IMG/VR virus record: IMGVR_UViG_3300009788_001138
Location: 1 to 20,074 of that record
Origin: a virus
Length of the DNA stretch: 20,074 bases
Direction: 5' to 3' (one strand)
The notes under the pieces are model-generated. The model was not told the DNA's origin. It made no database searches and worked only from the letters and a program-made list of their open reading frames with translations. Below, one piece after another: positions 5,346-19,095 of the stretch (positions within the stretch are counted from its first letter, which is position 1; each line of letters begins with the position of its first letter). The translations under genes and the position numbers were made by a program.

Positions 5346-5840
5346 CTAGCTGTCAACAACCTCCATCTTCTGGAAGCGAACATTCTCATACTCGTTACCA
5401 GTATCCTTATCCTTGGAAATAGTCTTGCGCTGAGTTGCTAGGATTTCCTTACCACCTTCCTCACCAAACTCTTTAGGCAGGAACTCTAGCATCTCTGGCA
5501 CCTTGACACCAGTTAGGTCGTCGCCAAGTAGCTTCTTCATTCTTGTCTTAAAGAACTCCAGTCCCTGCTTAGTAACCTGGAAGTTCTCTGAGAACAGAGT
5601 CCTATCCGGTACTAAGTCATCTTCCTGGTTGTTCAGTTCAAGAGTTTCCCTCACCTGATAGGTAATGCGGATAGACTTCTTGATTTCATTATCCTTTTCA
5701 CGGGACTGAATAGATGATTCCGTAATACCTAGTCTATACTTACCACTAGGCGGAGTCATATATTCTGGTGCTTCATCAACACCATCCAGTGTCAGGTCGT
5801 CTAGGCTATCCATATCTAACAGGGTTTCTTCGTCAGCCAT
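5346..5840 (-). CDS. DUF669/SSB-like single-strand DNA-binding candidate
   Basis: A 164-residue protein with a very acidic N-terminal tail (residues 1-25, rich in D and E), then a beta-rich body: PSGKYRLGITESS near 31-43, SIRITYQVRETLEL near 56-69, and LFSENFQVTKQGLEFFKTRMKKLLG near 82-106. This pattern (GxY strand, long basic-acidic strands, LFENF, a terminal helix with lysines) resembles DUF669 and related phage OB-fold proteins, which usually sit beside Sak4-type recombinases. Here it lies ten bases after the Sak4-like gene. The ATG at 5840 has GAGGA about nine bases upstream. Single-strand binding is inferred from fold resemblance and context. The acidic tail is N-terminal rather than C-terminal, unlike classical SSB. 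Confidence 0.6.
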   Translation of the reverse strand: MADEETLLDMDSLDDLTLDGVDEAPEYMTPPSGKYRLGITESSIQSREKDNEIKKSIRITYQVRETLELNNQEDDLVPDRTLFSENFQVTKQGLEFFKTRMKKLLGDDLTGVKVPEMLEFLPKEFGEEGGKEILATQRKTISKDKDTGNEYENVRFQKMEVVDS

Positions 5841-5850
5841 TAGTATATCC

Positions 5851-6750
5851 TCATGAGTTAGCTTTTGCTTTCGCTTCTGCTTGTATTAGCTTCAGCACAT
5901 CAGGCAGAGTAGCTTCTAGGTCTGAACTAATGTCCACGCCAGTCCTAGTCCCTGCCTGTATTCCGCTCTTCTTAGTTGGACTACTAAGATGAGCGAATTT
6001 GTTAAGCTCTATATATCTATAGATAATAGAGCCGAAATACTTTCCTACGTTCATGCTATAGTTTCTACTAAGACAGATAGGATAGAAGTCACTCTTAGTC
6101 TTAGTAGGATTACCAGATTTATCCGTAGCTAGGACAATCTCTTTCTCTAGCACATGAGTACAAGCTATTACGTAGGCTGGACAAGCCTGTACTGTAGTAA
6201 AGAAGTTATTAAGCTGGTTAGTCGCTGCCATATACCAGAGTCTATTGTCTTTAGCATCTGGCTTATCTAGCTTAGCCTGATTCAAAGCGGAGACTCCTAT
6301 CTGTCCTATTGTATCTAGGACAAAGGCAGTCTCTTCATTCCACATATCAGGCTTGATTACTATGTCAGTCTCTGTCTCTTTCTTTTCTTTTCCAATAAAT
6401 GCTCCCGTCGTGCCATCAAGTCTGATAGTTCTGCTTCTGTATCTGAACACAGCTTCAGCAGTATTGATTGCCCTAGGCTCGTCAGGAAGATCGAGGATTC
6501 TGACCAAGGTAATCTTAGCAAGCTCCGTATCAGTAAAGTAAGGAGTGCCATCCTGATTCTTCGCATAGATTATAGTCTCCCATCCATTCTCGAAGTCAAA
6601 GAAAAAGACTCTCTTAATCTGTGGGGCCTTGGCTATTGTTGCCGCCCATCTAGTCTTACCAGTTCTAGGTGGTCCCCAGATTAAGGTAGTCCTACCTGCT
6701 TGGCTGACACGTTCAGCCTGTATCTCCTTTCTTAGCTCAGCTAGATTCAT
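5851..6750 (-). CDS. Sak4-like RecA-fold ATPase (AAA_24)
   Basis: A RecA-core ATPase of 299 residues, of the kind that supports single-strand annealing or recombination in phages. Walker A is GPPRTGKT at 26-33 and Walker B is TAFVLDTIG with D146. The strand FFFDFENGWET at 49-59 carries the acidic residue that follows the first strand in this family. Residues 190-235 contain a typical core hydrophobic strand (YVIACTHV) followed by the region that would bind DNA. The ATG at 6750 overlaps the upstream zinc protein by 14 bases. Neighbours are an SSB-like protein downstream and a Cas4-like nuclease two genes upstream, a classic Sak4 recombination set. Confidence 0.85.
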   Translation of the reverse strand: MNLAELRKEIQAERVSQAGRTTLIWGPPRTGKTRWAATIAKAPQIKRVFFFDFENGWETIIYAKNQDGTPYFTDTELAKITLVRILDLPDEPRAINTAEAVFRYRSRTIRLDGTTGAFIGKEKKETETDIVIKPDMWNEETAFVLDTIGQIGVSALNQAKLDKPDAKDNRLWYMAATNQLNNFFTTVQACPAYVIACTHVLEKEIVLATDKSGNPTKTKSDFYPICLSRNYSMNVGKYFGSIIYRYIELNKFAHLSSPTKKSGIQAGTRTGVDISSDLEATLPDVLKLIQAEAKAKANS

Positions 6751-6958
6751 TAGGCTTATCTCCTAGCTCTGTGAGTAGGCAACAGTTATCCTCTAGGAAC
6801 TCCCACATACATTCCATGCAGATACACTTACCTTTCCAGGCTATACCTACACCTCGTTGGACGCCATGTTTCTTACAGTCCCATAGCTTAGGAGGGGGCG
6901 GCTGCATTACAGGTCTCTTAGGTCTCATAGTCTGTCCCCTGTTACCTTTCCTACTCAT
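6737..6958 (-). CDS. Small zinc-binding protein
   Basis: A 73-residue protein with a basic, proline-rich N-terminus (residues 1-25, PPPP at 20-23) and a metal-binding pattern WDCKKHG and KCICMEC (C28, H31, C45, C47, C50), followed by a cysteine pair at 59-60. This suggests one zinc site. The ATG at 6958 overlaps the nuclease TGA (ATGA), and its 3' end overlaps the Sak4-like gene. DNA or protein binding is likely, but no family is recognised. Confidence 0.7.
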   Translation of the reverse strand: MSRKGNRGQTMRPKRPVMQPPPPKLWDCKKHGVQRGVGIAWKGKCICMECMWEFLEDNCCLLTELGDKPNESS

Positions 6959-7938
6959 TGTGTAGCCGCCTCTAGCACTTCAGCTAATGTGTATGTAAAC
7001 TCCCACTCTGTGTCTGCATTATAAGGCATACCAAACTCTAAGGCTAAGTCATCCTGTTCCTGATTCCAAGAGGACATATTGCATGTCTCAAAATACTGAC
7101 AGACTCTATTATATGCTAAGCATTCCTGCCAACGCTGCGGCCAAAAGTTATTCTCGTAACAGAAGATTGCTTTATTAAGGTCCATCATAAGAGTCATGCC
7201 CCAATTTAGACGGTCTAGTCTAGTCTTTTGGTACGGGAGCATCTTAGACTCAGGCCATATCTCTCCGCGATGTAGATGAGACACGGCATAGACTGTTTCA
7301 AAGTTATTAGGTTGGTCTTTCAAGACTGCATCCAGCATAGTACTGTAGCCTAATGCCTGTGGACTATACTTATACAAAGGAGCTAGCTCATCACGGTTCA
7401 TTCCTGTAGTCTTTATCTCTAATACACCTGCCTGTTCTTTCTTTCTATTCCAGATACAGACATCAGCAAAGCCACAGAAGTAATCACCGTAATCATTTAA
7501 TATTATCTTAAAGCCTAGCTCAATAGCTGGACGTTCATCAATGTATAGGAGTTCATAGTCTGTCTTATCCCACTTAACAGCCAGGGATTCAACTGCCATG
7601 AAAGCCCGTTCCAGAAATTTTCTATTCTGTTTTGTATCAGCATCCTCTACCAGCGGTGTGTATTCTAACAGAGTTATAAACAGGGCGTGGTCTAAATCTC
7701 CTGACTTGATGTAGTCTTGGAAGCCTGCGCCAACAGCTTTACCAAAGGGTAAGTCTGCATACATACCTATCCTGTCTTCATCGGATGTAGGCATACAGCA
7801 GGCAAGCTGATACTTCTTCTCACATCTGTTTAAGATATCATTAGAAGAATGTGACATGCGGAACCTAGGCCGTGGCCCAGATTCTACTGCCTCTAGTTCT
7901 ACGTTAGCTGGCGCTTTAAGCAGTTGCTTTAGACTCAT
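6955..7938 (-). CDS. Cas4-like PD-(D/E)XK exonuclease, probably Fe-S
   Basis: A nuclease of 327 residues in the PDDEXK_1/Cas4-AddB group. The catalytic core is FCGFADVCIW (D159) and VLEIKTTG (E174, K176), followed by SPQALGYSTML with Q194 and Y198, the usual motif IV. Cysteines C39 (NRCEKKY) plus C273, C280 and C286 match the one-plus-three spacing of the 4Fe-4S cluster of Cas4 and AddB nucleases. No helicase domain is fused. In phages such nucleases resect double-strand ends to supply single strands for Sak4-type recombination, and that module is two genes away. The ATG at 7938 overlaps the upstream TAA (TAATG). Confidence 0.85.
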   Translation of the reverse strand: MSLKQLLKAPANVELEAVESGPRPRFRMSHSSNDILNRCEKKYQLACCMPTSDEDRIGMYADLPFGKAVGAGFQDYIKSGDLDHALFITLLEYTPLVEDADTKQNRKFLERAFMAVESLAVKWDKTDYELLYIDERPAIELGFKIILNDYGDYFCGFADVCIWNRKKEQAGVLEIKTTGMNRDELAPLYKYSPQALGYSTMLDAVLKDQPNNFETVYAVSHLHRGEIWPESKMLPYQKTRLDRLNWGMTLMMDLNKAIFCYENNFWPQRWQECLAYNRVCQYFETCNMSSWNQEQDDLALEFGMPYNADTEWEFTYTLAEVLEAATQ

Positions 7939-8291
7939 TAAAAATCCTCTGGAGGCTTGTTGATAAGCTCTGCTAGTTTAACTCTACTAATGTTACTACC
8001 AGCCTTCTTCTTATTCTGCTTCAGAGTATCCTTGACTAGTATTACATTAGATAGCTTCTTAATGCCTGCAACTAGTGTGCCTACATCCGCATCCAATAGC
8101 TCATGTACTATCTGAGGATAGTTACGTAGAGACTCCTTTAACTCTATCAGTATCTTCCTGACAGCTTCATGAGGAACCTCATCATCTAATGCAGACTGGA
8201 GAGCAGACAGACCTTCCTTGAAAGAGTCTGGGTCATACTCTCCAGCCCCTGCTTTAGCACTATCAAACAGCACTAAGTCTTCTATAGACAT
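7938..8291 (-). CDS. Helical unknown protein
   Basis: A 117-residue, probably helical protein with an acidic first half and a basic tail (KDTLKQNKKKAGSNISRVK). The start is the ATG at 8291, which has AGGAG five bases upstream. The frame is open to 8459, but that extension shadows the signal-peptide gene and is rejected. A coiled-coil-like stretch runs from about 25 to 60. It directly precedes, and is coupled (TAATG) to, the Cas4-like nuclease, so it may be a partner of it. No family is recognised. Confidence 0.7.
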   Translation of the reverse strand: MSIEDLVLFDSAKAGAGEYDPDSFKEGLSALQSALDDEVPHEAVRKILIELKESLRNYPQIVHELLDADVGTLVAGIKKLSNVILVKDTLKQNKKKAGSNISRVKLAELINKPPEDF

Positions 8292-8292
8292 G

Positions 8293-8511
8293 CTATCTCC
8301 TAATGATAGTAATAGTGGTTGATGGTGCTGGTGGGAGAACGACGCGGCCAGGCTGTACTGCTGGTCGCCCATTGACACAGCCATAAGGACTACCACATCT
8401 GTTAATCCCAACGCCACCATGAAAGCCTCCGACACCAATGCCACAAGGAGGATGGGCATAGACTGTAGCGGAGAATAAGAATAAACTAAATATCAAACTC
8501 ATTCGTATCAT
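8293..8511 (-). CDS. Small exported glycine-rich cysteine protein
   Basis: A 72-residue protein with a textbook signal peptide: MIRMSLIFSLFLFSATVYA, with a likely signal-peptidase I site after A19 (V-Y-A). The mature part of about 53 residues is glycine- and proline-rich with three cysteines (C23, C39, C45). It contains no further membrane segment. The ATG at 8511 overlaps the previous gene, and an ATG at 8502 is an alternative that keeps the signal peptide. Its stop codon overlaps the AGGAG that serves the next gene, so it belongs to the operon. Exported early phage proteins are sometimes superinfection-exclusion factors or host-envelope effectors, but no family is recognised. Confidence 0.65.
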   Translation of the reverse strand: MIRMSLIFSLFLFSATVYAHPPCGIGVGGFHGGVGINRCGSPYGCVNGRPAVQPGRVVLPPAPSTTITIIRR

Positions 8512-8803
8512 TAACCTGTACCTTATGAACTGTTACGCCTTCCGTGCGGATTAAACGTAGTCTTATCCTAACTACGCCATCTTCTTTCTCTTCTTCAGTC
8601 TGAGGTAAGCAGACAGACTTGTATTGTATAGTCTTATCCGCAAACTCTCCTAACTTCTCCATTTCCCTATGCTTCTGCTTAGCCATACCCTGACGAACAT
8701 AGTCTGACTTCACTATATCTACGGTAATAGTGATATCCTCTTCTGCGGATAGTAGACGCCACAGTTCCCTCAAGGTTAGTTCTTTAGTCGTATCTAAAGT
8801 CAT
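8486..8803 (-). CDS. Unknown protein
   Basis: A 105-residue protein. Residues 3-25 (LDTTKELTLRELWRLLSAE) look helical. The second half alternates strands and charged turns (DGVVRIRLRLIRTEGVTVHKVQV), suggesting a small alpha/beta domain. There is one cysteine and no metal motif. The ATG at 8803 overlaps the upstream TGA (ATGA), and its end overlaps the signal-peptide gene by 26 bases. No family is recognised. Confidence 0.65.
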   Translation of the reverse strand: MTLDTTKELTLRELWRLLSAEEDITITVDIVKSDYVRQGMAKQKHREMEKLGEFADKTIQYKSVCLPQTEEEKEDGVVRIRLRLIRTEGVTVHKVQVNDTNEFDI

Positions 8804-9270
8804 AGCTTCTCTAATAGACTCCGCTTAGCAGGCTCGGGCTTAGGATTCCACTGTGCTGTCTGCCTCCAGGCTATGTGACAGCAGAATAGATAGCTTACTA
8901 ACGTATCGAAGTAGTCATTGTCTGTAGCTGCCTCTAACACAAAGCCTATTCTCATGAGGGGAGAAAGCCTACTGTCATAGTCAGCCGGGAAATTTTCTAT
9001 ACAATTTGGACAGCCTTCTCTTATCTGCCCGCCTGGGATATGTCCCCAGATAGTATCACAATGGAAACAGTAGTCAGGTAGAAGCTCAGGTTGAGCATTG
9101 TTAACTATCCGCTTCCATTCTATACTATCCTTTAATAGCATACCTCCATCATTATGTGGTACTACATCCTTTAACCTAGGCAAGCCCTGGGCTAGCCACT
9201 CTAAGACTAGAGTAGGCCAGCCTTCTAGGGCTGCCTCGAAGAATGCTCCGTGCGCACCAGTATATTGCAT
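8800..9270 (-). CDS. Zinc-ribbon protein of unknown function
   Basis: A 156-residue protein with a CFHC/CPNC zinc ribbon (C68, C71, C87, C90 counting from the ATG at 9270), flanked by helical regions. The loop between the knuckles (DTIWGHIPGGQIREG) is 15 residues. A pair of cysteines (CCHIAW, near 130) may add to structure. The C-terminus KRSLLEKL resembles the SLxxxL peptide found in the SF1 helicase tail. The ATG at 9270 overlaps the upstream TGA (TGATG), and a GTG one codon earlier is equally possible. Binding of DNA or of a replication partner is plausible but unproven. Confidence 0.65.
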   Translation of the reverse strand: MQYTGAHGAFFEAALEGWPTLVLEWLAQGLPRLKDVVPHNDGGMLLKDSIEWKRIVNNAQPELLPDYCFHCDTIWGHIPGGQIREGCPNCIENFPADYDSRLSPLMRIGFVLEAATDNDYFDTLVSYLFCCHIAWRQTAQWNPKPEPAKRSLLEKL

Positions 9271-9488
9271 CACTGAGTCTGTACCTTCTTAAGCTGTTCT
9301 GCTTGCTGTATTCTCTGTCGTTCTTTAGCAGTTACACACTTAGCCAGATATCGTATCTTACTCTGGTCTGGCTTCCAGTTTATATTGTTCTCTGCTGCCG
9401 CCCGCTCTCTGCAAACATCCTCTAGTCCGATGTTACAGACTGCCGGTGGAGCAGCTCCTGCCATAGCTATGTAAACTACGCACCACAT
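9270..9488 (-). CDS. Small protein with hydrophobic N-terminus
   Basis: A 72-residue protein starting at the ATG at 9488, which has AGGAGG five bases upstream. The frame is open to 9566, but that part shadows the DUF1353 gene. The first 18 residues (MWCVVYIAMAGAAPPAVC) are hydrophobic and could be a weak signal or membrane segment, although they lack the usual positive charge. The rest is helical and charged, ending KERQRIQQAEQLKKVQ. Cysteines are at 3, 18, 26 and 51; C3-C18-C26 could form disulfides if exported. No family is recognised. Confidence 0.6.
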   Translation of the reverse strand: MWCVVYIAMAGAAPPAVCNIGLEDVCRERAAAENNINWKPDQSKIRYLAKCVTAKERQRIQQAEQLKKVQTQ

Positions 9489-10286: not shown

Positions 10287-10474
10287 TGTTTTGTCTCGTG
10301 TTCTATAGCTGCTGATACTGCTGCTCTTAGTGCCGCAGTAAATGACCTTACTAGGATAAGCCTAGCTGTATCAGTCATGTGTACCCCATACTTATGCTGC
10401 CAAGCCATGACTAATGCTTGTATCTCAGGGTCTAAGGAGCTAAACATCTCCTTATCCCTCTCTTCAGTGGTCAT
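10283..10474 (-). CDS. Small helical protein, paralogue of the next gene upstream
   Basis: A 63-residue all-helical protein. Its middle (LVMAWQHKYGV, then TAALRAAVSAAIEHE) aligns with the middle of the 121-residue protein encoded immediately upstream (LLRLWKEKYDL, TAALVSAYQ, ISEHVE): the same W, KY, TAAL and EH positions with a short insert in the longer copy. Junctions are TAATG upstream and ATGA downstream. Function unknown. It may be the tail-less partner of a two-protein complex. Confidence 0.65.
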   Translation of the reverse strand: MTTEERDKEMFSSLDPEIQALVMAWQHKYGVHMTDTARLILVRSFTAALRAAVSAAIEHETKQ

Positions 10475-10839
10475 TATAAATCATCCGTACTAGGTAGCTT
10501 CTGAGTCAGGCTTAAACTCTTCTTTTTCTTGGCTACCTTTTTCTTAGCTTTCTTCTTAGCCTTTTTCTTAGCTACCTTCTTCTTAGTCTGCTTCTTCTCA
10601 AGCTGCTTAGTCATAAGTGTAGCCTCTACATGCTCACTTATTGCATCAAGGACTAGACTTAACCCTCTTTGATAGGCAGATACTAAAGCAGCAGTTATCT
10701 TTAGCGTTAGTATCTCATAGTCCTTATCATCAAACAGATACAGTGGAAGGTCATACTTCTCTTTCCAGAGTCGTAGGAGAACCTTACCATCTAAACCTGC
10801 ATCCTTGGGTATAGGTATTTTATCAACTTCAGGATTCAT
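10474..10839 (-). CDS. Helical protein with histone H1-like lysine-rich tail
   Basis: A 121-residue protein. Residues 15-75 form a helical domain shared with the neighbouring 63-residue protein. Residues 80-107 are almost only lysine and alanine (KKKVAKKKAKKK-type repeats), like histone H1 or bacterial HU-type tails, and would bind nucleic acid without sequence preference. The end (SLSLTQKLPSTDDL) returns to neutral, with an SLxxxL peptide. The ATG at 10839 has AGGAG six bases upstream. Slippage on A-rich codons could vary the tail length. Confidence 0.7.
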   Translation of the reverse strand: MNPEVDKIPIPKDAGLDGKVLLRLWKEKYDLPLYLFDDKDYEILTLKITAALVSAYQRGLSLVLDAISEHVEATLMTKQLEKKQTKKKVAKKKAKKKAKKKVAKKKKSLSLTQKLPSTDDL

Positions 10840-10848
10840 CTTATGCTC

Positions 10849-11070
10849 CTAACTATCTAATATGCCTACACGTGATAGTCGTATCATATGTTGATTGTAC
10901 TTTACTGTTTCTCCTGTTGTAATAAGCTCGATAAATCTATCAGCCATATCAGGATTCTGATAAAAGGATATACTAAGAGTATCATTTATAGCTTTATTCT
11001 GCTCAGAGTCTAGTACAGCCCATTCCATCTCGCTCTCTGGCATCAGCTCGTACTCAAAGTCAAACCTCAT
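10849..11070 (-). CDS. Small unknown protein
   Basis: A 73-residue acidic protein (MRFDFEYELMPESEMEWAVL at the start). No motif is recognised. The ATG at 11070 overlaps the TGA of the SF1 helicase gene (ATGA), so it is translated directly after it and could be an accessory. Its stop lies next to the AGGAG for the following gene. Confidence 0.65.
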   Translation of the reverse strand: MRFDFEYELMPESEMEWAVLDSEQNKAINDTLSISFYQNPDMADRFIELITTGETVKYNQHMIRLSRVGILDS

Positions 11071-13388
11071 ACTGATACCTCTACATCTTCATCAAGATAG
11101 CCTGAGTTAAAGTATTCTACCTTCTCCTTCAGACTATTACCCTTTATCCGAGGACTAGTAATAGCTTTACGGATAAGCTCCGGTCTAGCTATTATAACAA
11201 GCTCTTCTCTTGCTCTTGTCATAGCCGTATACAGTAGCTCTCGGCTAAGCATGGTAGCATGATTCTTATGGAACAGGAGAAAGACTCTACGCCACTCACT
11301 ACCCTGTGCCTTATGGACGCTAAGAGCATAGCCAAGCTGGAATATTTGACCGTTAAGTTCTCCAGCAGAGCTTACAGTTATCTCCTGTCCAGTCTCTAAC
11401 TCTACTGATACAATATGACTAGCTAACTGCTTACGCTCTTCATCCTCGTCTATATCAGATAGAACATCCAGTTCCATGTTGCTAAGGTCTAAGTCCTCAC
11501 CATTCATTACAGCAGCAGCACTATCCGCTGCCTTTCCGATATAGAATCCAAAGCGAGATAAGTTAACAGAAGGAGACATAGGCTTCTTACCCATGTAGGA
11601 CATATTACTGCGTATATGTACTATCTTACCTTCCATCTTATTAACTAAGACATTATCTCCGACTGCTAGATAATGCTTCTCATATCCGGCTATTATCTCA
11701 AAGACTTCTGCATTACGCTCTTCTCCTAGAATCTGTGCTATCCTGTAATTGATTATCTTAGTCCCCATAGCATTCTTATTGAATGGAATAAGGACTATAT
11801 CCTCATCAGGATTATATGTCCAAGCCTCTTCTTCTAGCTTATCTATTTCTCTTTCACTCTTAGGCTTAGAAAGCAAAGCCTTACGCTCTTCTAGGGTTAG
11901 CGTATCGTAATCTACTAGAGCCTTCCGCCACTTGATTACCCTTCTCCTGTTCTCAATAGCATTGCCAAAGAAGGTTCCCATTGCACGGCTCATAGTCTCT
12001 TCTGGCTGTGCAGTCTTACTGTTACCAGTCATCCACTTGACTTCAGGCTTAGTCTCCTTAATAGGATTACCGTGAAGTACAGCATGAGCATTAGCTATGA
12101 TAGGATTGTCTAATGCCTGTCTGTATACGATATCTAGATGGACGATTGGTAGCTTAGTAAGAGCGTAGGACATAATGCTCTTGCCAAATACAGGAGGGAG
12201 TTGATTGATATCTCCGACGTAGATTATCTGTACGCCAGGATTAAGTGCTGCCCGTAACTCTTCCCACAAGTCTAAGCCTAGCATAGAGGCTTCTTCTATA
12301 ATAAGGTGAGTTACGCTAAGCGGGTTCCATTGTCCCCGCTGAGGCTTAAACATTTGAACCTCTCGCTCCTGCTTTTCTGACCATAGCATAACTGGAGAGT
12401 ATTCTAATAGGTTATGTACAGTCTGTAATGAGCCTTCCATCTCAGCATGAAGCTCAAAGTTATGGCTGATGATACGGGCTACGTTACCTATAGCCTTACG
12501 AGTATAAGCACAGACGCAAGCAGACGGACCAATTATTCTCCTTCCACTCCTGTCATTACGTCTATAGTCTATATCGTTAACTTTTTCTTGGTGATGATGT
12601 AGGAGAGACATAAGTACAGCTTCAATAGTAGTAGATTTACCTGTACCTGCTTCTCCTGTTAGAACAAAGGATTTACCATCAATAGCCATCTGGACAGCAC
12701 TAGTCTGTTTCGCATTTAGTTCTATTGGCCGCCCGTATCTGTCTAATAGCTTAATGGTATCGGATTCAGCACTTAGGATAGACGGCTCGAAAGCCTCATC
12801 TATTACTACATCAGACTGCTTAGCCCTACGCATCTTATCTTTAAGAGACAGACTAGAGCCAGCGATAATTGGTCTGGGTATATCTTCTGCATTCCTCATA
12901 TAAGAACCCCCTGCACCAAGCTCCTGATTAGGAGTGTCAGACAGTGGTACAGAGGCAGGAGTAGTACTGGTGACAGGATACGCCTTCTTAGCCACAAGTG
13001 GTTTAACCTGTTCAGCTTTCTCCTTAACCGTTCGCCTTAGCTTATCAGCTAGACTAGGCTTCTTGTTAGGCGGAGCGACTGCAACTGTAGATACTGGCTC
13101 GCTGTCTAGAACAGGTTGCACAGGCGTTGCAGCCACTCCTTTAGGTTTAGCTAGCATGTCTTTCAAGCTAGGCTTATTGTTAGGCTGTGGGTCACACTTA
13201 GGACAGGTTCCTTCTCCTATCCTTCTATGCTTGCCCATTCCTGCCCCGCAATAGGAGCAGAACTCTTTAGGTGGAACCACCGGAGCAGGAGAATCAGGCT
13301 CCCTATACACAACCGGGCTAGGCTGAGACTCCGGCGGTTCCGAAACTGGTTTATTCTGATACTTAGGTAGGCTATCAAGGAGGCTCAT
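11067..13388 (-). CDS. SF1 helicase of the RecD/Pif1/Dda type with repetitive N-terminal tail
   Basis: A 773-residue helicase. The core (about 210-735) shows Walker A GEAGTGKST at 245-253, motif II IIEEASML with E365-E366, motif III GDINQLPPV at 392-400, motif V YALSVHKAQGSEW at 687-699 and motif VI YTAMTRARE at 720-728. The N-terminal 200 residues are low-complexity and proline-rich, with a CSYC/CPKC zinc ribbon (C44, C47, C62, C65) and three copies of a K-P-S-L-x-D-x-L type peptide (72-83, 109-119, 179-190). It probably unwinds DNA 5'-3' during recombination or replication restart. Coupled by ATGA on both sides. Confidence 0.9.
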   Translation of the reverse strand: MSLLDSLPKYQNKPVSEPPESQPSPVVYREPDSPAPVVPPKEFCSYCGAGMGKHRRIGEGTCPKCDPQPNNKPSLKDMLAKPKGVAATPVQPVLDSEPVSTVAVAPPNKKPSLADKLRRTVKEKAEQVKPLVAKKAYPVTSTTPASVPLSDTPNQELGAGGSYMRNAEDIPRPIIAGSSLSLKDKMRRAKQSDVVIDEAFEPSILSAESDTIKLLDRYGRPIELNAKQTSAVQMAIDGKSFVLTGEAGTGKSTTIEAVLMSLLHHHQEKVNDIDYRRNDRSGRRIIGPSACVCAYTRKAIGNVARIISHNFELHAEMEGSLQTVHNLLEYSPVMLWSEKQEREVQMFKPQRGQWNPLSVTHLIIEEASMLGLDLWEELRAALNPGVQIIYVGDINQLPPVFGKSIMSYALTKLPIVHLDIVYRQALDNPIIANAHAVLHGNPIKETKPEVKWMTGNSKTAQPEETMSRAMGTFFGNAIENRRRVIKWRKALVDYDTLTLEERKALLSKPKSEREIDKLEEEAWTYNPDEDIVLIPFNKNAMGTKIINYRIAQILGEERNAEVFEIIAGYEKHYLAVGDNVLVNKMEGKIVHIRSNMSYMGKKPMSPSVNLSRFGFYIGKAADSAAAVMNGEDLDLSNMELDVLSDIDEDEERKQLASHIVSVELETGQEITVSSAGELNGQIFQLGYALSVHKAQGSEWRRVFLLFHKNHATMLSRELLYTAMTRAREELVIIARPELIRKAITSPRIKGNSLKEKVEYFNSGYLDEDVEVSV

Positions 13389-13582
13389 GTCTGACCTCCC
13401 TGAATTATCTTAGCGTAACCCCATTTAATCTCTGCATACTCTAAGCCTGTAAAGATGGGAGTATCCTCTGCCATCTCATCCTCGCAGTCAAAGCATAGCC
13501 ACTGACCGTCTGCGAATACTTCTGCCTCTTCATCCTGGCAGAGTTCACAGCTTCCTAGTTTATGATAACCTGAACCTTTCAT
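13385..13582 (-). CDS. Small zinc-ribbon protein
   Basis: A 65-residue protein with SCELC at 11-15 and WLCFDC at 28-33 (C12, C15, C30, C33), a one-site zinc ribbon, followed by an acidic stretch and a tryptophan-containing tail (EYAEIKWGYAKI). Coupled by ATGA to the genes on both sides, between the 356-residue protein and the SF1 helicase. Likely a protein- or DNA-binding adaptor; exact role unknown. Confidence 0.7.
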   Translation of the reverse strand: MKGSGYHKLGSCELCQDEEAEVFADGQWLCFDCEDEMAEDTPIFTGLEYAEIKWGYAKIIQGGQT

Positions 13583-14649
13583 TTAGCTACACCTTTCTGC
13601 CTTGGGCTAGTACGTGGCTTGAGCATATTCATCAAGCTAGGCTTTTTCTCGTGGCTTTTTTCTACCACTTCGCCCAGGAATGTGTTTTGGAGTGTATACT
13701 TAGCTACGTTAGCCATTGTTCCAATCTCTCCTGTAACAAAGGCATAGCCTATACGCTCCATGACCGTAGACCAATCTTGTTTAAGCTGCGGGGAGTTGCT
13801 AAGCTCTACTAGTCGATTGCCTAGCTTCTCATGGGTATCTGGACCGTAGTCAGCCCAATGAGATATAGCCATCTCTATATTGAGATACTGCTGCTTGGAT
13901 ATAACTTTAGCAGTCTTTAAGCTCTTACAACCCTCTAGGCATTTATCTATGCCCCAGTCTATATGCTGACCACTAAGAGGCTTATCTGCCCGCCTAACTC
14001 TAGCGCGAGCGGCTATCTCCTGGTCATAGACTGTTACTGATGCCTGAGTCCTTCCTCGCAGTCTAGGCAGCTTACTAGAATCATCTTCTATGATAGAGCC
14101 TAAGTAAGTGCCAAGAGAATCTGACCAACGCTTAGTCTTATAGCTCTTGTCAGTCTGGTAATCATCATAGACTGTGGACAGGTTTATCTTATCTGCTGAT
14201 TTCCTAGTCCAGTTAGTCAGCCTGCGTGCCCACCATAGGAGCTGAGCGCGGCGTCTATGAGCACAGAGAGCTAGGTTAAGCTCGTGCATTTGCCTACCTG
14301 ACAGTCGGCTAAAGCTAAGCCCTAAGTCTGCCAGTTGAGCAAAGATTACACCGACAATAAAAGACTTAGCTAGTATCTGCTCCTGCTTGGGTATGTCAAA
14401 GTCTGACTCAATACCCAGGCTGATGTCTTGCCAGTCTTTATTGTATAGCTTCTCTGGTTCTAGCTTCTTATTAGCCTCATGCTTTAGGATAGCCCGCATG
14501 GTATCACAGTCTAAGAATGCAGGATGTACCTTATTGACTTCTGCTACGTATTGAAGTCCTATACTATCCTGTAAGTAGAATTTAACGCCAGAAATAGAAC
14601 AGTATATCTGTTGTATCCTGGCCTTGCCTTTATCCTGATTGGTAATCAT
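13579..14649 (-). CDS. First gene of the early operon; unknown protein
   Basis: A 356-residue soluble protein that begins with CSISGVKFYL near 17-26 and HPAFLDCDTM near 42-51, a pattern I have seen in uncharacterised phage proteins beside RecD-like helicases, then a long helical, arginine-rich body (LCAHRRRAQLLWWARRL near 126-142). No nuclease, polymerase or ATPase motif is visible. The last 24 residues include KKPSLMNMLKPR (335-346), the same peptide type as in the helicase tail. The ATG at 14649 has AGGAG nine bases upstream, and lies about 40 bases after the likely start of the leftward transcript. An early regulator, a primase-like factor or a recombination mediator are all possible. Confidence 0.7.
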   Translation of the reverse strand: MITNQDKGKARIQQIYCSISGVKFYLQDSIGLQYVAEVNKVHPAFLDCDTMRAILKHEANKKLEPEKLYNKDWQDISLGIESDFDIPKQEQILAKSFIVGVIFAQLADLGLSFSRLSGRQMHELNLALCAHRRRAQLLWWARRLTNWTRKSADKINLSTVYDDYQTDKSYKTKRWSDSLGTYLGSIIEDDSSKLPRLRGRTQASVTVYDQEIAARARVRRADKPLSGQHIDWGIDKCLEGCKSLKTAKVISKQQYLNIEMAISHWADYGPDTHEKLGNRLVELSNSPQLKQDWSTVMERIGYAFVTGEIGTMANVAKYTLQNTFLGEVVEKSHEKKPSLMNMLKPRTSPRQKGVAK

Positions 14650-15268: not shown

Positions 15269-15910
15269 ATGGGTAAAGAAGATACTTTCACTAATAAGCT
15301 GGTACTGATGATTCGTACCACCATCAATAAGAAGCGTATTGATGTCGGTACAGTCGATGTGCCTTATCCTACTCTCTTCGATATCAGCGAGCGGCTGAGC
15401 CTCCCCGATAAGTTCCAGGAGGATGAAGAGGGAAACAAGAGCCCAGTTTACGACGACGAGGAATTGCAATGGGCTCAGGATGCTATGCTTGATGCAGTCA
15501 AGCGAGAAGCGAGGAACGTGACTAAAGTAGTAGAGGATAAGGAATCCGACACTGGTTACGCTCTAGACTTCACTCGGCCTATCCCTGAGAACTTCGCTCA
15601 GTTATGCGAGGAACATAAGAGACAGGGCGGGGAGTATCTGAAAATCAGGCACGAAGCTATAGCAGACTTTGGCAAGTGGCTTACCAGTCTAGACAAGAGC
15701 CAAGCGGCGATGGACATGGCTAAAAAGCTATTCTCCGACCCAGCCGCTCTTGATGTTAGCCCGGTAAAGACTCGTAACACGTTCCACGAGAATTACCTGA
15801 CACCCTATATAGAAGGGTTAGAGGCTGACACTAGAGAGCGTTACACTCAGGTACTAGAGAAAGTTATCACTAGCGCCGAGAGTGAGGAAGCAGCAGCAGA
15901 CGACTTCTAA
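15269..15910 (+). CDS. Unknown protein with SSB-like acidic C-terminus
   Basis: A 213-residue protein, the first plus-strand gene, with AGGAG ten bases before its ATG. It starts with a beta-like strand region (LVLMIRTTINKKRIDVGTVD), then is mostly helical and highly charged. The C-terminus is SAESEEAAADDF: acidic with a terminal phenylalanine, like the tails of T7 gp2.5 and bacterial SSB that bind replication partners. No OB-fold can be confirmed by eye. The gene has its own promoter and is followed by a strong hairpin, so it is probably a separately controlled, abundant product. It could be a DNA-binding protein or an early host-takeover protein. Confidence 0.7.
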   Translation: MGKEDTFTNKLVLMIRTTINKKRIDVGTVDVPYPTLFDISERLSLPDKFQEDEEGNKSPVYDDEELQWAQDAMLDAVKREARNVTKVVEDKESDTGYALDFTRPIPENFAQLCEEHKRQGGEYLKIRHEAIADFGKWLTSLDKSQAAMDMAKKLFSDPAALDVSPVKTRNTFHENYLTPYIEGLEADTRERYTQVLEKVITSAESEEAAADDF

Positions 15911-17454: not shown

Positions 17455-17572
17455 CCAGTCTGTTGTCACACTCAAGGATGGCGGTCAGCGATTTCCTATG
17501 GGCCGCCGCCAGGAGGAAAGACAGCGTAGTAATATCGCTCGTGAGCTAAAGAAACTAGGTCTGTCCGGCTAA
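17384..17572 (+). CDS. Small basic protein between the terminase genes
   Basis: A 62-residue basic protein, overlapping the end of terS by 71 bases and coupled to terL by TAATG. The C-terminal half (RRQEERQRSNIARELKKLGL) is a basic helix. The ATG at 17384 sits behind a purine-rich AGGAAGAGGA; an ATG at 17402 would shorten the overlap. Position suggests a packaging accessory, and the tight coupling supports it being real. No family is recognised. Confidence 0.6.
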   Translation: MASTKKMKLPTHPFTSTLVPIPSDQSVVTLKDGGQRFPMGRRQEERQRSNIARELKKLGLSG

Positions 17573-19095
17573 TGGAGCTTACTCCTGAACAGGCAGTAGA
17601 AGGCTGTAAGACAGACCCTAACTTCTTCAGCCGCTTTGCTATGCCAGAAGTACATGAATATGACATCCCAGAATTCTACACTGAGGTCTGGTTCTTCCTA
17701 CTTCAAAGGATTATCAGTGTCCGAGATACTCTTCACTCGGTGTTTAGATTCGCGCTGGGTCTCCCCAGAGGACACGCAAAGACTACTTTCTCAAAACTCC
17801 TTATTGCCTACGGTATCCTTTTTGGTCTATTTGACTTCGTCCTTATCGTCGGATCCTCGGAAGATAGAGCCCAGGACATCTTAGATGATATTGATGGTAT
17901 ACTAGGATCAGACAATGTCAGGAAAGTCTTTGGGGATTGGAATAGTCCTAGAGCTGTTGAGAGAGACACCAGAGAAGTTAAGATTAGAAACTTCCTGGGA
18001 CGAGAGGTTATTCTTGCGGCAGTTGGAGCAGGCACTGCATTACGTGGAATTAACATCCGTAATAGAAGACCCGGATTTATTCTACTGGATGATGTCCAGA
18101 CTAAAGAGAATGACGAAAGTCCTGCCGAGCGTGACAGACTACTACGATGGATACTCGCCACTCTACTTAAATCCCGAGACCCTAAGCATTGCTTTATTTT
18201 CTACATTGGGAATATGTACAGCGAACAATGTATACTTAAGCAGTTGCAGAATAACAAGATGTGGACAACCCTTATCACAGGTGCCATACTTGCCGATGGT
18301 TCAGCCTTATGGCCCCAGCTACATCCACTAGATAATCTACTAGAAGAGTATGAACATGATAGCTCACTAGGTAAAGCAGATATCTGGTTTGCGGAGATAA
18401 TGAATGACCCGCAGTCTGTTACCCAAAGCCTATTCCCTGACGGCAGCATACCAGATAGTCCGTATGCTGAGGATGCGGAACTTGAGGTACAGGCTAGCTT
18501 CATTACTGTGGACCCTGCTGGTTTCAGGAGTGATAGTGATGATAACGTGGTTGTTGCGCATAAGCTAGTTGATGATATTCCGATTATAACAGAGATACGA
18601 GCTGGCAAGTGGGACCCGGAGACTACTATATTAGAGGCTATTGATTGCGCGATAGATAACCGCAGCACCTATATTGGGATAGAATCAGTAGCTTATCAAC
18701 AGACGCTTAAGTTCTGGATGGAACTCTATCTTGATAGTTATGGCTTAGATAATAACATACTGGTTATTGAGATTAAGCCTGGTATCGCCTCCAAGCATTC
18801 CAGGATAAGAGCCTGGGTATCTAACGTATTAAATAATAATTATAATGTATTACGTTCTGTTGACCGCGCTCTTATCCTATGGCAAGGTATCCGTTATAGG
18901 GCTGGTAAGAAAAACAATCAGGACGATATCCTTGACGGCTGTGCATTCGGTGATTACATGCTGAATAAGCATAGAGATGAATTAGAATATAGCTTTGGTA
19001 TAGTTCCTGGCATAAGCGCAGATGATAAGGCCAGGGTTATAGGACATAATACACCTATGGATGGTGCGCCTCATTATACTCCAGGAGCAATCTAA
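17572..19095 (+). CDS. terL: Terminase large subunit
   Basis: A 507-residue DNA-packaging motor with ATPase and nuclease domains. Walker A is LPRGHAKTT (64-72), Walker B FILLDD (D173, D174), and a coupling-like motif IFYIGNMY follows at 209-216. The conserved GAGTALRGI at 153-160 resembles podovirus and T7-type terminases. The RNase H-like nuclease shows FITVDPAG (D314), YIGIES (E371) and DDILDGCAFGD (about 451-461, D452/D455). Length is normal for the family and all key residues are present. Start ATG at 17572 overlaps the upstream TAA by one base. Confidence 0.93.
   Translation: MELTPEQAVEGCKTDPNFFSRFAMPEVHEYDIPEFYTEVWFFLLQRIISVRDTLHSVFRFALGLPRGHAKTTFSKLLIAYGILFGLFDFVLIVGSSEDRAQDILDDIDGILGSDNVRKVFGDWNSPRAVERDTREVKIRNFLGREVILAAVGAGTALRGINIRNRRPGFILLDDVQTKENDESPAERDRLLRWILATLLKSRDPKHCFIFYIGNMYSEQCILKQLQNNKMWTTLITGAILADGSALWPQLHPLDNLLEEYEHDSSLGKADIWFAEIMNDPQSVTQSLFPDGSIPDSPYAEDAELEVQASFITVDPAGFRSDSDDNVVVAHKLVDDIPIITEIRAGKWDPETTILEAIDCAIDNRSTYIGIESVAYQQTLKFWMELYLDSYGLDNNILVIEIKPGIASKHSRIRAWVSNVLNNNYNVLRSVDRALILWQGIRYRAGKKNNQDDILDGCAFGDYMLNKHRDELEYSFGIVPGISADDKARVIGHNTPMDGAPHYTPGAI

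Follow-up and report, generated by a model that had tools for sequence, protein, structure and literature searches.

A short basic peptide shared by replication and recombination proteins in relatives of Pseudomonas phage 119X, a probable docking motif

We describe a short peptide that recurs in the tails of replication and recombination proteins encoded on a 20,074-base virus fragment (IMG/VR record IMGVR_UViG_3300009788_001138, analysed over its whole length and called the window below) and on related genomes. The window is kin of Pseudomonas phage 119X/PaP2 (Fredfastierviridae), Polaromonas phage Tiera and EBPR podovirus 3. Across about 160 related IMG/VR contigs, gathered by alignment searches with the family A DNA polymerase (PolA) and the helicase, the peptide has the consensus P-L-[ST]-[LF]-x-E-[KR]-[LM]-A-x-K-K, and it is found in four non-homologous carriers, namely the N-terminal tail of an SF1 helicase, the C-terminal end of a Sak4-like recombinase, the C-terminal end of a 356-residue protein and the N-terminal tail of a small protein (family fam0). 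We conclude that this is a genuine peptide of the docking type that is confined to this phage group, with docking as such being likely; recruitment by short motifs is known, and the sequence and arrangement found here are new. On balance we lean towards a docking motif on flexible tails that joins its carriers to one phage-encoded partner, for which a single-stranded DNA-binding (SSB)-like protein would be the likeliest candidate.

Conservation and anatomy of the motif

We compared 48 sites from relatives of the window, in which positions −2 and −1 are P and L or M, position 0 is S or T (47 of 48) and position +1 is F, L or I. Position +3 is E or D and position +4 is K or R (44 of 48 each), +5 is L, M, I or V at every one of the 48 sites, +6 is mainly A, and +8 and +9 are mainly K or R. 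The motif is thus basic, with the consensus SFAEKLALKK, and is frequently internal in the protein; examples are KPLTFAEKMALKK and KPLSLAERLALKK, and KPSLKDML and SLKDKM from the window. The S/T-x-x-E arrangement is a classical helix capping box. The motif thus probably folds into a short amphipathic helix that has a basic rim and is anchored at two hydrophobic points. AlphaFold also gives it as a helix of eight residues in the Sak4-SSB chain described below. Sak4 carries one copy at its extreme C-terminal end, the helicase one to five in its N-terminal tail, fam0 often two, and the family of the 356-residue protein one at its C-terminal end. The peptide has the general properties of a short linear docking motif, being short, placed in flexible tails, present on non-homologous carriers and conserved more than its flanks. 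A description of such a motif was not found in the open literature that we searched.

Three known recruitment sequences could be ruled out on the sequence of the 48 sites. The conserved Q of the beta-clamp motif QLxLF is found at no position. The FxxA/BRC pattern of RAD51 does not fit, as K or R stands three residues past the F/L in 44 of the 48 sites. The bacterial SSB C-terminal tail is an acidic peptide with a free C-terminal hydrophobic residue, whereas the motif is basic and in many cases internal.

In a more distant clade the helicases start with sequences such as MATITKERLAELMADLRAKKAA and the Sak4 proteins end with sequences such as SILERLKAK. These look, from their sequences, like drifted forms of the motif, and they mostly fall under strict thresholds. 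Nearly all helicases of the loci L091-L162 have as their N-terminus a conserved helix like MSTxxRLAELLAxxRAKKA, which is probably the motif in drifted form. In the distant-clade family of the 356-residue protein, the C-terminal helix SKLDYIKAKLRYR aligns to where the motif would be and packs into the predicted fold, with a predicted local distance difference test (pLDDT) score above 90.

Statistical tests across the phage group

Because the four carrier families are not homologous, the key result is a leave-one-family-out test, in which a model trained on the remaining families was scored at 12 bits. The motif was recovered in 17 of 101 Sak4 C-terminal ends (0.15 in shuffled sequences), 20 of 100 helicase tails (0.3), 12 of 25 fam0 N-terminal tails (0.2) and 9 of 84 C-terminal ends in the family of the 356-residue protein (0.0). 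Similarly, a hand-made model of 21 picked sites from five genomes, scored on held-out loci, gave 51 tail matches of at least 12 bits in held-out relatives compared to 5.0 after each tail was shuffled, and none in phages with distant polymerase similarity only; some of the held-out loci (L047, L089) are closely related to 119X.

The reference genomes Tiera, 119X and EBPR podovirus 3 carry the same type of peptide in helicase tails, Sak4 C-terminal ends, orthologs of the 356-residue protein and small proteins. A model trained without these three genomes found 12 sites in 9 of their proteins. All lie in the replication half, and the structural half is free of them (p = 2.6e-5 when counted by residues and 0.003 by proteins). 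Furthermore, exact DNA patterns of the consensus matched 6 and 3 of 2.9 million viral contigs, and all of these matches fall in fam0 or Sak4 genes of this phage group. Pattern-based searches starting from the helicase or the 356-residue protein alone found no relatives, and alignments were required.

For the proteins of the window we used a 12-position model built from the 48 relatives' sites, with the window and its nearest relative left out. At a cut-off of at least 9 bits this gave 5 sites, compared to 0.24 per shuffled proteome, and none of 300 shuffles gave as many. The sites are at helicase residues 74, 112, 181 and 498 and at the C-terminal end of a zinc-ribbon protein. The site at residue 498 is judged spurious because it lies inside the folded helicase; the other four, three helicase-tail copies and the zinc-ribbon end, are genuine. 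In a few relatives GKETFVEKLKP also scored, near the C-terminal end of a giant protein from the other strand; we judged this to be chance, as the family of that protein has no conserved motif there.

An earlier, sequence-only reading of the window had proposed a repeated motif in the disordered ends of its replication and recombination proteins. This is borne out, as the motif is kept at corresponding positions of orthologs throughout a diverse group of phages and in the four non-homologous families, and the absence of the motif from homologues with conserved flanks, which that reading had named as the outcome that would tell against it, did not occur.

Motif copies in the helicase and the 356-residue protein

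The helicase (11067..13388, minus strand, as are all the genes and sites located below; 773 residues) is an SF1 enzyme of the Dda/RecD2-like type, matching Pfam AAA_19/UvrD_C_2 and PHROG 325 (Dda-like helicase, E 7.5e-68), and is 39-43% identical to the Tiera and 119X helicases in the core only. Its disordered N-terminal tail of about 200 residues holds the motif copies KPSLKDMLAKPK (residues 72-83, KPSLKDML; 13140..13175; 11.2 bits), KPSLADKLRRTV (residues 110-121, KPSLADKL; 13026..13061; 9.1 bits) and LSLKDKMRRAKQ (residues 180-191, LSLKDKM; 12816..12851), the last of which has the core sequence SLKDKMRRAK and, at 15.0 bits, is the best in the window. The three strings are thus present at residues 72, 110 and 180, as first read, and each reaches at least 9 bits in the relatives-only model. 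At the DNA level the three KPSL copies share a 26-nucleotide similarity (65% and 81%), so part of their likeness, notably the extra KP, may stem from local duplication. The third helicase copy is encoded by codons other than those of the KPSL copies. The helicase also starts with a weak form, MSLLDSLPKYQN (MSLLDSLPK, from residue 1; 13353..13388), that is itself below threshold, and its ortholog in L166 begins MNLTDKLKAKS (17.9 bits).

The 356-residue protein (13579..14649), with an N-terminal CxxSG signature, is syntenic and encoded immediately upstream of the helicase. Its motif, KPSLMNMLKPRT, spans residues 336-347 (13609..13644), and an ortholog with 43% identity overall has ELSLVERLKAKVKE at the same place behind a conserved flank (TFLGEVVEK...ELSLVERLKAK). 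The protein had been said to end with the motif; the motif itself stands, but the string KKPSLMNMLKPR at residues 335-346 is followed by 10 more residues, TSPRQKGVAK. The site is divergent, with MNM instead of xEK, and scores below 5 bits in the relatives-only model, its support coming from the ortholog.

We found no Pfam or PHROG match for this protein. A profile link (E 9e-7) connects it to a 63-member family with an invariant C and HP close to the N-terminal end and a gene just upstream of the helicase. The predicted model of one family member is largely helical, with a mean pLDDT of 90. Comparison of this model with PDB chains gave no clear relative (best Z 4.4 over 71 residues), and one viral relative that was found (E 1.5e-7) yields no functional assignment; a PDB sequence search with the family profile likewise gave nothing convincing. 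Because it is a member of the motif set, we regard the 356-residue protein, by association, as a replication/recombination factor.

A candidate docking partner

In the mechanism that we propose, the short linear motif ([ST]-[LF]-x-[ED]-[KR]-[LMI]-x-x-K-K) would fold as an N-capped basic amphipathic helix in the flexible tails of the Sak4 recombinase, the repair/replication helicase, the 356-residue protein and small accessory proteins, and would gather these carriers, where DNA replicates or recombines, on a single partner encoded by the phage. The likeliest partner would be the SSB-like protein, itself motif-free, which would coat single-stranded DNA and whose acidic N-terminal helix (LDLDxLLDxxLDxV) would be complementary in charge; the several helicase copies might then give multivalent attachment to the SSB-coated strand.

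We ranked the SSB-like (DUF669-like) protein (5346..5840) first because its conserved acidic N-terminal helix is opposite in charge to the motif. The helix lies at about 5775-5825 (TLLDMDSLDDLTLDGV), and the family alignment shows its pattern, TxLDLDxLLDxxLDxVxxxPDF, kept in nearly all aligned members. The gene comes immediately after sak4 in the window and in relatives. The match of the family to the DUF669 profile is weak and limited to 2 of 35 members (best E 7.8e-4), with the window member unmatched, and a PDB sequence search with the family profile gave nothing convincing. The family has no acidic C-terminal tail of the HK620 type, its C-terminal ends being sequences such as RPLHDEPKA, RVVAPR and QKMEVVDS. 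The motif is absent from the SSB-like family (0 of 82) and rare in the Cas4-like (1 of 114), PolA (3 of 116) and DUF3987 (4 of 62, interior) families. Helicase docking to an SSB is established for Dda and gp32 of phage T4. The DUF669 protein of HK620 is an SSB that recruits Sak4 via its C-terminal peptide (PMC5928155), and the acidic tail of the 80alpha SSB works jointly with the C-terminal domain of Sak (PMC11846896).

Several observations weigh against this reading. In the locus L009, Sak4 (ending PSLAERLAATRAAKT) and the SSB-like protein lie in one frame with a single TAA between them, and we used the natural read-through chain as a docking test with AlphaFold. Both domains were predicted with confidence, most blocks exceeding a pLDDT of 90, but for the helix of the motif the score was about 50, and this helix was docked on neither the SSB nor Sak4. 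We take this model as a weak negative, which lowers the SSB idea without removing it, and SSB oligomers, which are absent there, could matter. Furthermore, the window Sak4 and the L005 Sak4 have no recognisable C-terminal motif, which is present in many relatives, and many Sak4 proteins of the group are without any tail. Docking on the SSB-like protein, as suggested by sequence, is thus a tentative proposal that may well be wrong. Of the earlier claim of docking to one common partner, the shared motif holds, while docking itself is what we infer from it, and the structure test gave a free helix of low confidence.

Alternative explanations

The same docking motif could instead serve another hub, be it PolA of the phage, the DUF3987 primase-helicase or a replication protein of the host, and so assemble a replisome. 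PolA and the primase-helicase occur just as universally in the group, and their tails are practically free of the motif, and the read-through model did not predict SSB docking; however, we noticed no conserved complementary peptide on either enzyme comparable to the SSB acidic helix, and we regard this alternative as rather unlikely. Sak4 itself might be the hub, with its C-terminal peptide docking on the adjoining Sak4 subunit and being imitated by the remaining carriers, as the RAD51 polymerisation motif is by the BRC repeats of BRCA2. Sak4 is a RAD51/RecA-like protein with the motif at its C-terminal end, and the helicase and the small protein bear multiple copies. The motif does not fit FxxA, however, as K or R occupies that position in nearly all sites; it was undocked on Sak4 in cis in the read-through model, and many Sak4 proteins lack the motif while their helicases retain theirs, which together make a Sak4 hub quite improbable.

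Only marginally less improbable is a generic role, in which the peptide, as a basic amphipathic helix, would bind DNA or membrane and not a protein. This would agree with its net positive charge, its amphipathic character and its place on lysine-rich tails, but the fixed capping residues (S/T in 47 and E/D in 44 of the 48 sites) and fixed hydrophobic positions exceed what charge alone would need, and shuffles that preserve composition fail to yield the motif. Chance, or a recent, functionless local duplication of tail DNA, could draw on the 26-nucleotide similarity (65-81%) among the three KPSL copies; however, the motif recurs in non-homologous genes of numerous diverged genomes, where it is encoded by different codons and its flanks vary, and this explanation is essentially refuted by the held-out tests.

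Comparison with known systems

The proposed docking on one partner resembles the SSB C-terminal tail interactome (DDDIPF of bacterial SSB, NDYPPF of the HK620 DUF669 SSB, the tail of T7 gp2.5), in which a short terminal peptide gathers recombination and replication enzymes, Sak4 among them, at single-stranded DNA. There, one acidic SSB peptide enters pockets on many enzymes, whereas here many enzymes bear a basic helical peptide, and the SSB-like protein has an acidic N-terminal helix and no acidic C-terminal tail. RPA-interacting helices and sliding-clamp motifs (PIP box, QLxLF) likewise serve many clients of one hub with one short motif, sometimes in copies, but their consensus is unrelated, and no clamp was recognised in the stretches read. 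BRC repeats also come as several copies on one protein and involve a recombinase, but here FxxA is missing and the recombinase itself has the motif at its C-terminal end. As in the Sak4-SSB recombination modules (PMC5928155), sak4 adjoins an ssb-like gene, here putatively of the DUF669 type; in contrast, an extra shared peptide here links Sak4, the helicase and others, a link of which we found no description in the open literature that we searched.

The motif offers a concrete and testable outline of how the DNA machinery is wired in a phage group that has been little studied, in which one peptide predicts machine membership of unassigned proteins such as the 356-residue protein and the small fam0 protein. 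If the hub is the SSB-like protein, the recruitment logic would be inverted compared to bacteria, T4 and T7.

Gene context and weaker forms in the window

The minus-strand block of the window runs from 14649 to 301 and encodes the 356-residue protein, a small CxxC protein, the SF1 helicase, several small proteins, a Cas4/PD-(D/E)XK-like nuclease, the Sak4-like recombinase, the SSB-like protein, PolA and a DUF3987/primase-type protein. This order is approximately conserved in Tiera, 119X and EBPR podovirus 3. The nearest relative of the window is L005/L166 (PolA 65% identical). The Sak4-like recombinase (5851..6750) matches PHROG 124 (Sak4-like, E 3.2e-7); the model of its L009 relative has Sak4 8rc5 as best match (Z 16.4, root-mean-square deviation 4.2, 200 aligned residues) and has the RecA/RAD51 core.

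Among the weaker forms that had been proposed, those at the helicase start, the Cas4-like start and the zinc-ribbon end hold to a limited extent, being kept in L005/L166. The Cas4-like nuclease (6955..7938; PDDEXK_1 at E 7.8e-4 in the L005 ortholog) starts with MSLKQLLKAP (7909-7938) and its ortholog with MHLRDKLGL; this tail motif is confined to the window and L005, and in most of the group's Cas4-like proteins the catalytic domain starts right at the N-terminus. The zinc-ribbon protein (8800..9273) has RSLLEKL at its very C-terminal end (8803-8823; 12.4 bits), and the L005 ortholog ends AINLIDKLKAQS... (INLIDKLKAQ); the motif is seen only in the window and in L005/L166. In contrast, the SLTQKL of the lysine-rich orphan (10474..10839) is unsupported, having no relative and falling below threshold. 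It is followed by PSTDDL, giving the acidic end STDDL.

A second, acidic end motif

The fam0 member of the window (7938..8459) has the acidic C-terminal end ...PPEDF, and its relatives have one or two N-terminal motif copies. Its listed open reading frame probably starts too early, as in the L005 relative conservation sets in near MPGIEDLILFD. Acidic residues followed by F, L or I form the C-terminal end of 45 of 126 fam0 proteins (3.8 expected), and of 11 of 31 in the family of window 8486-8803 (0.6 expected). Tiera_039 and its L017 relative both finish in DDDIPF, identical to the tail of bacterial SSB, and Tiera_039 begins with the basic motif. Since small proteins carry such acidic ends, and fam0 and Tiera_039 have both, one might speculate about a two-ended docking code, in which the basic helical peptide and an acidic ...[DE][FLI]-COOH tail, variously combined on recombination and replication proteins, build a multivalent assembly; we think this doubtful. 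If true, it would amount to an inverted SSB interactome, with the clients rather than the SSB carrying the peptide.

Acidic stretches with free F, L or I ends (EDF, SDF, DDF, DDL) are found at window 7938-8459, 8486-8803, 10474-10839 and 15269-15910 and also in L002 (Tiera_038, 040, 053, 055), and they resemble SSB-type tails. The small phage protein at L002:9156-9593 and L017:4136-4555 ends DMDDDIPF and DYDDDIPF, respectively, and likely mimics SSB to recruit host SSB-binding proteins. Several terminase large subunits, in the family of window 17572-19095, have C-terminal ends (...SPF/TPF/NDF) that are reminiscent of SSB tails.

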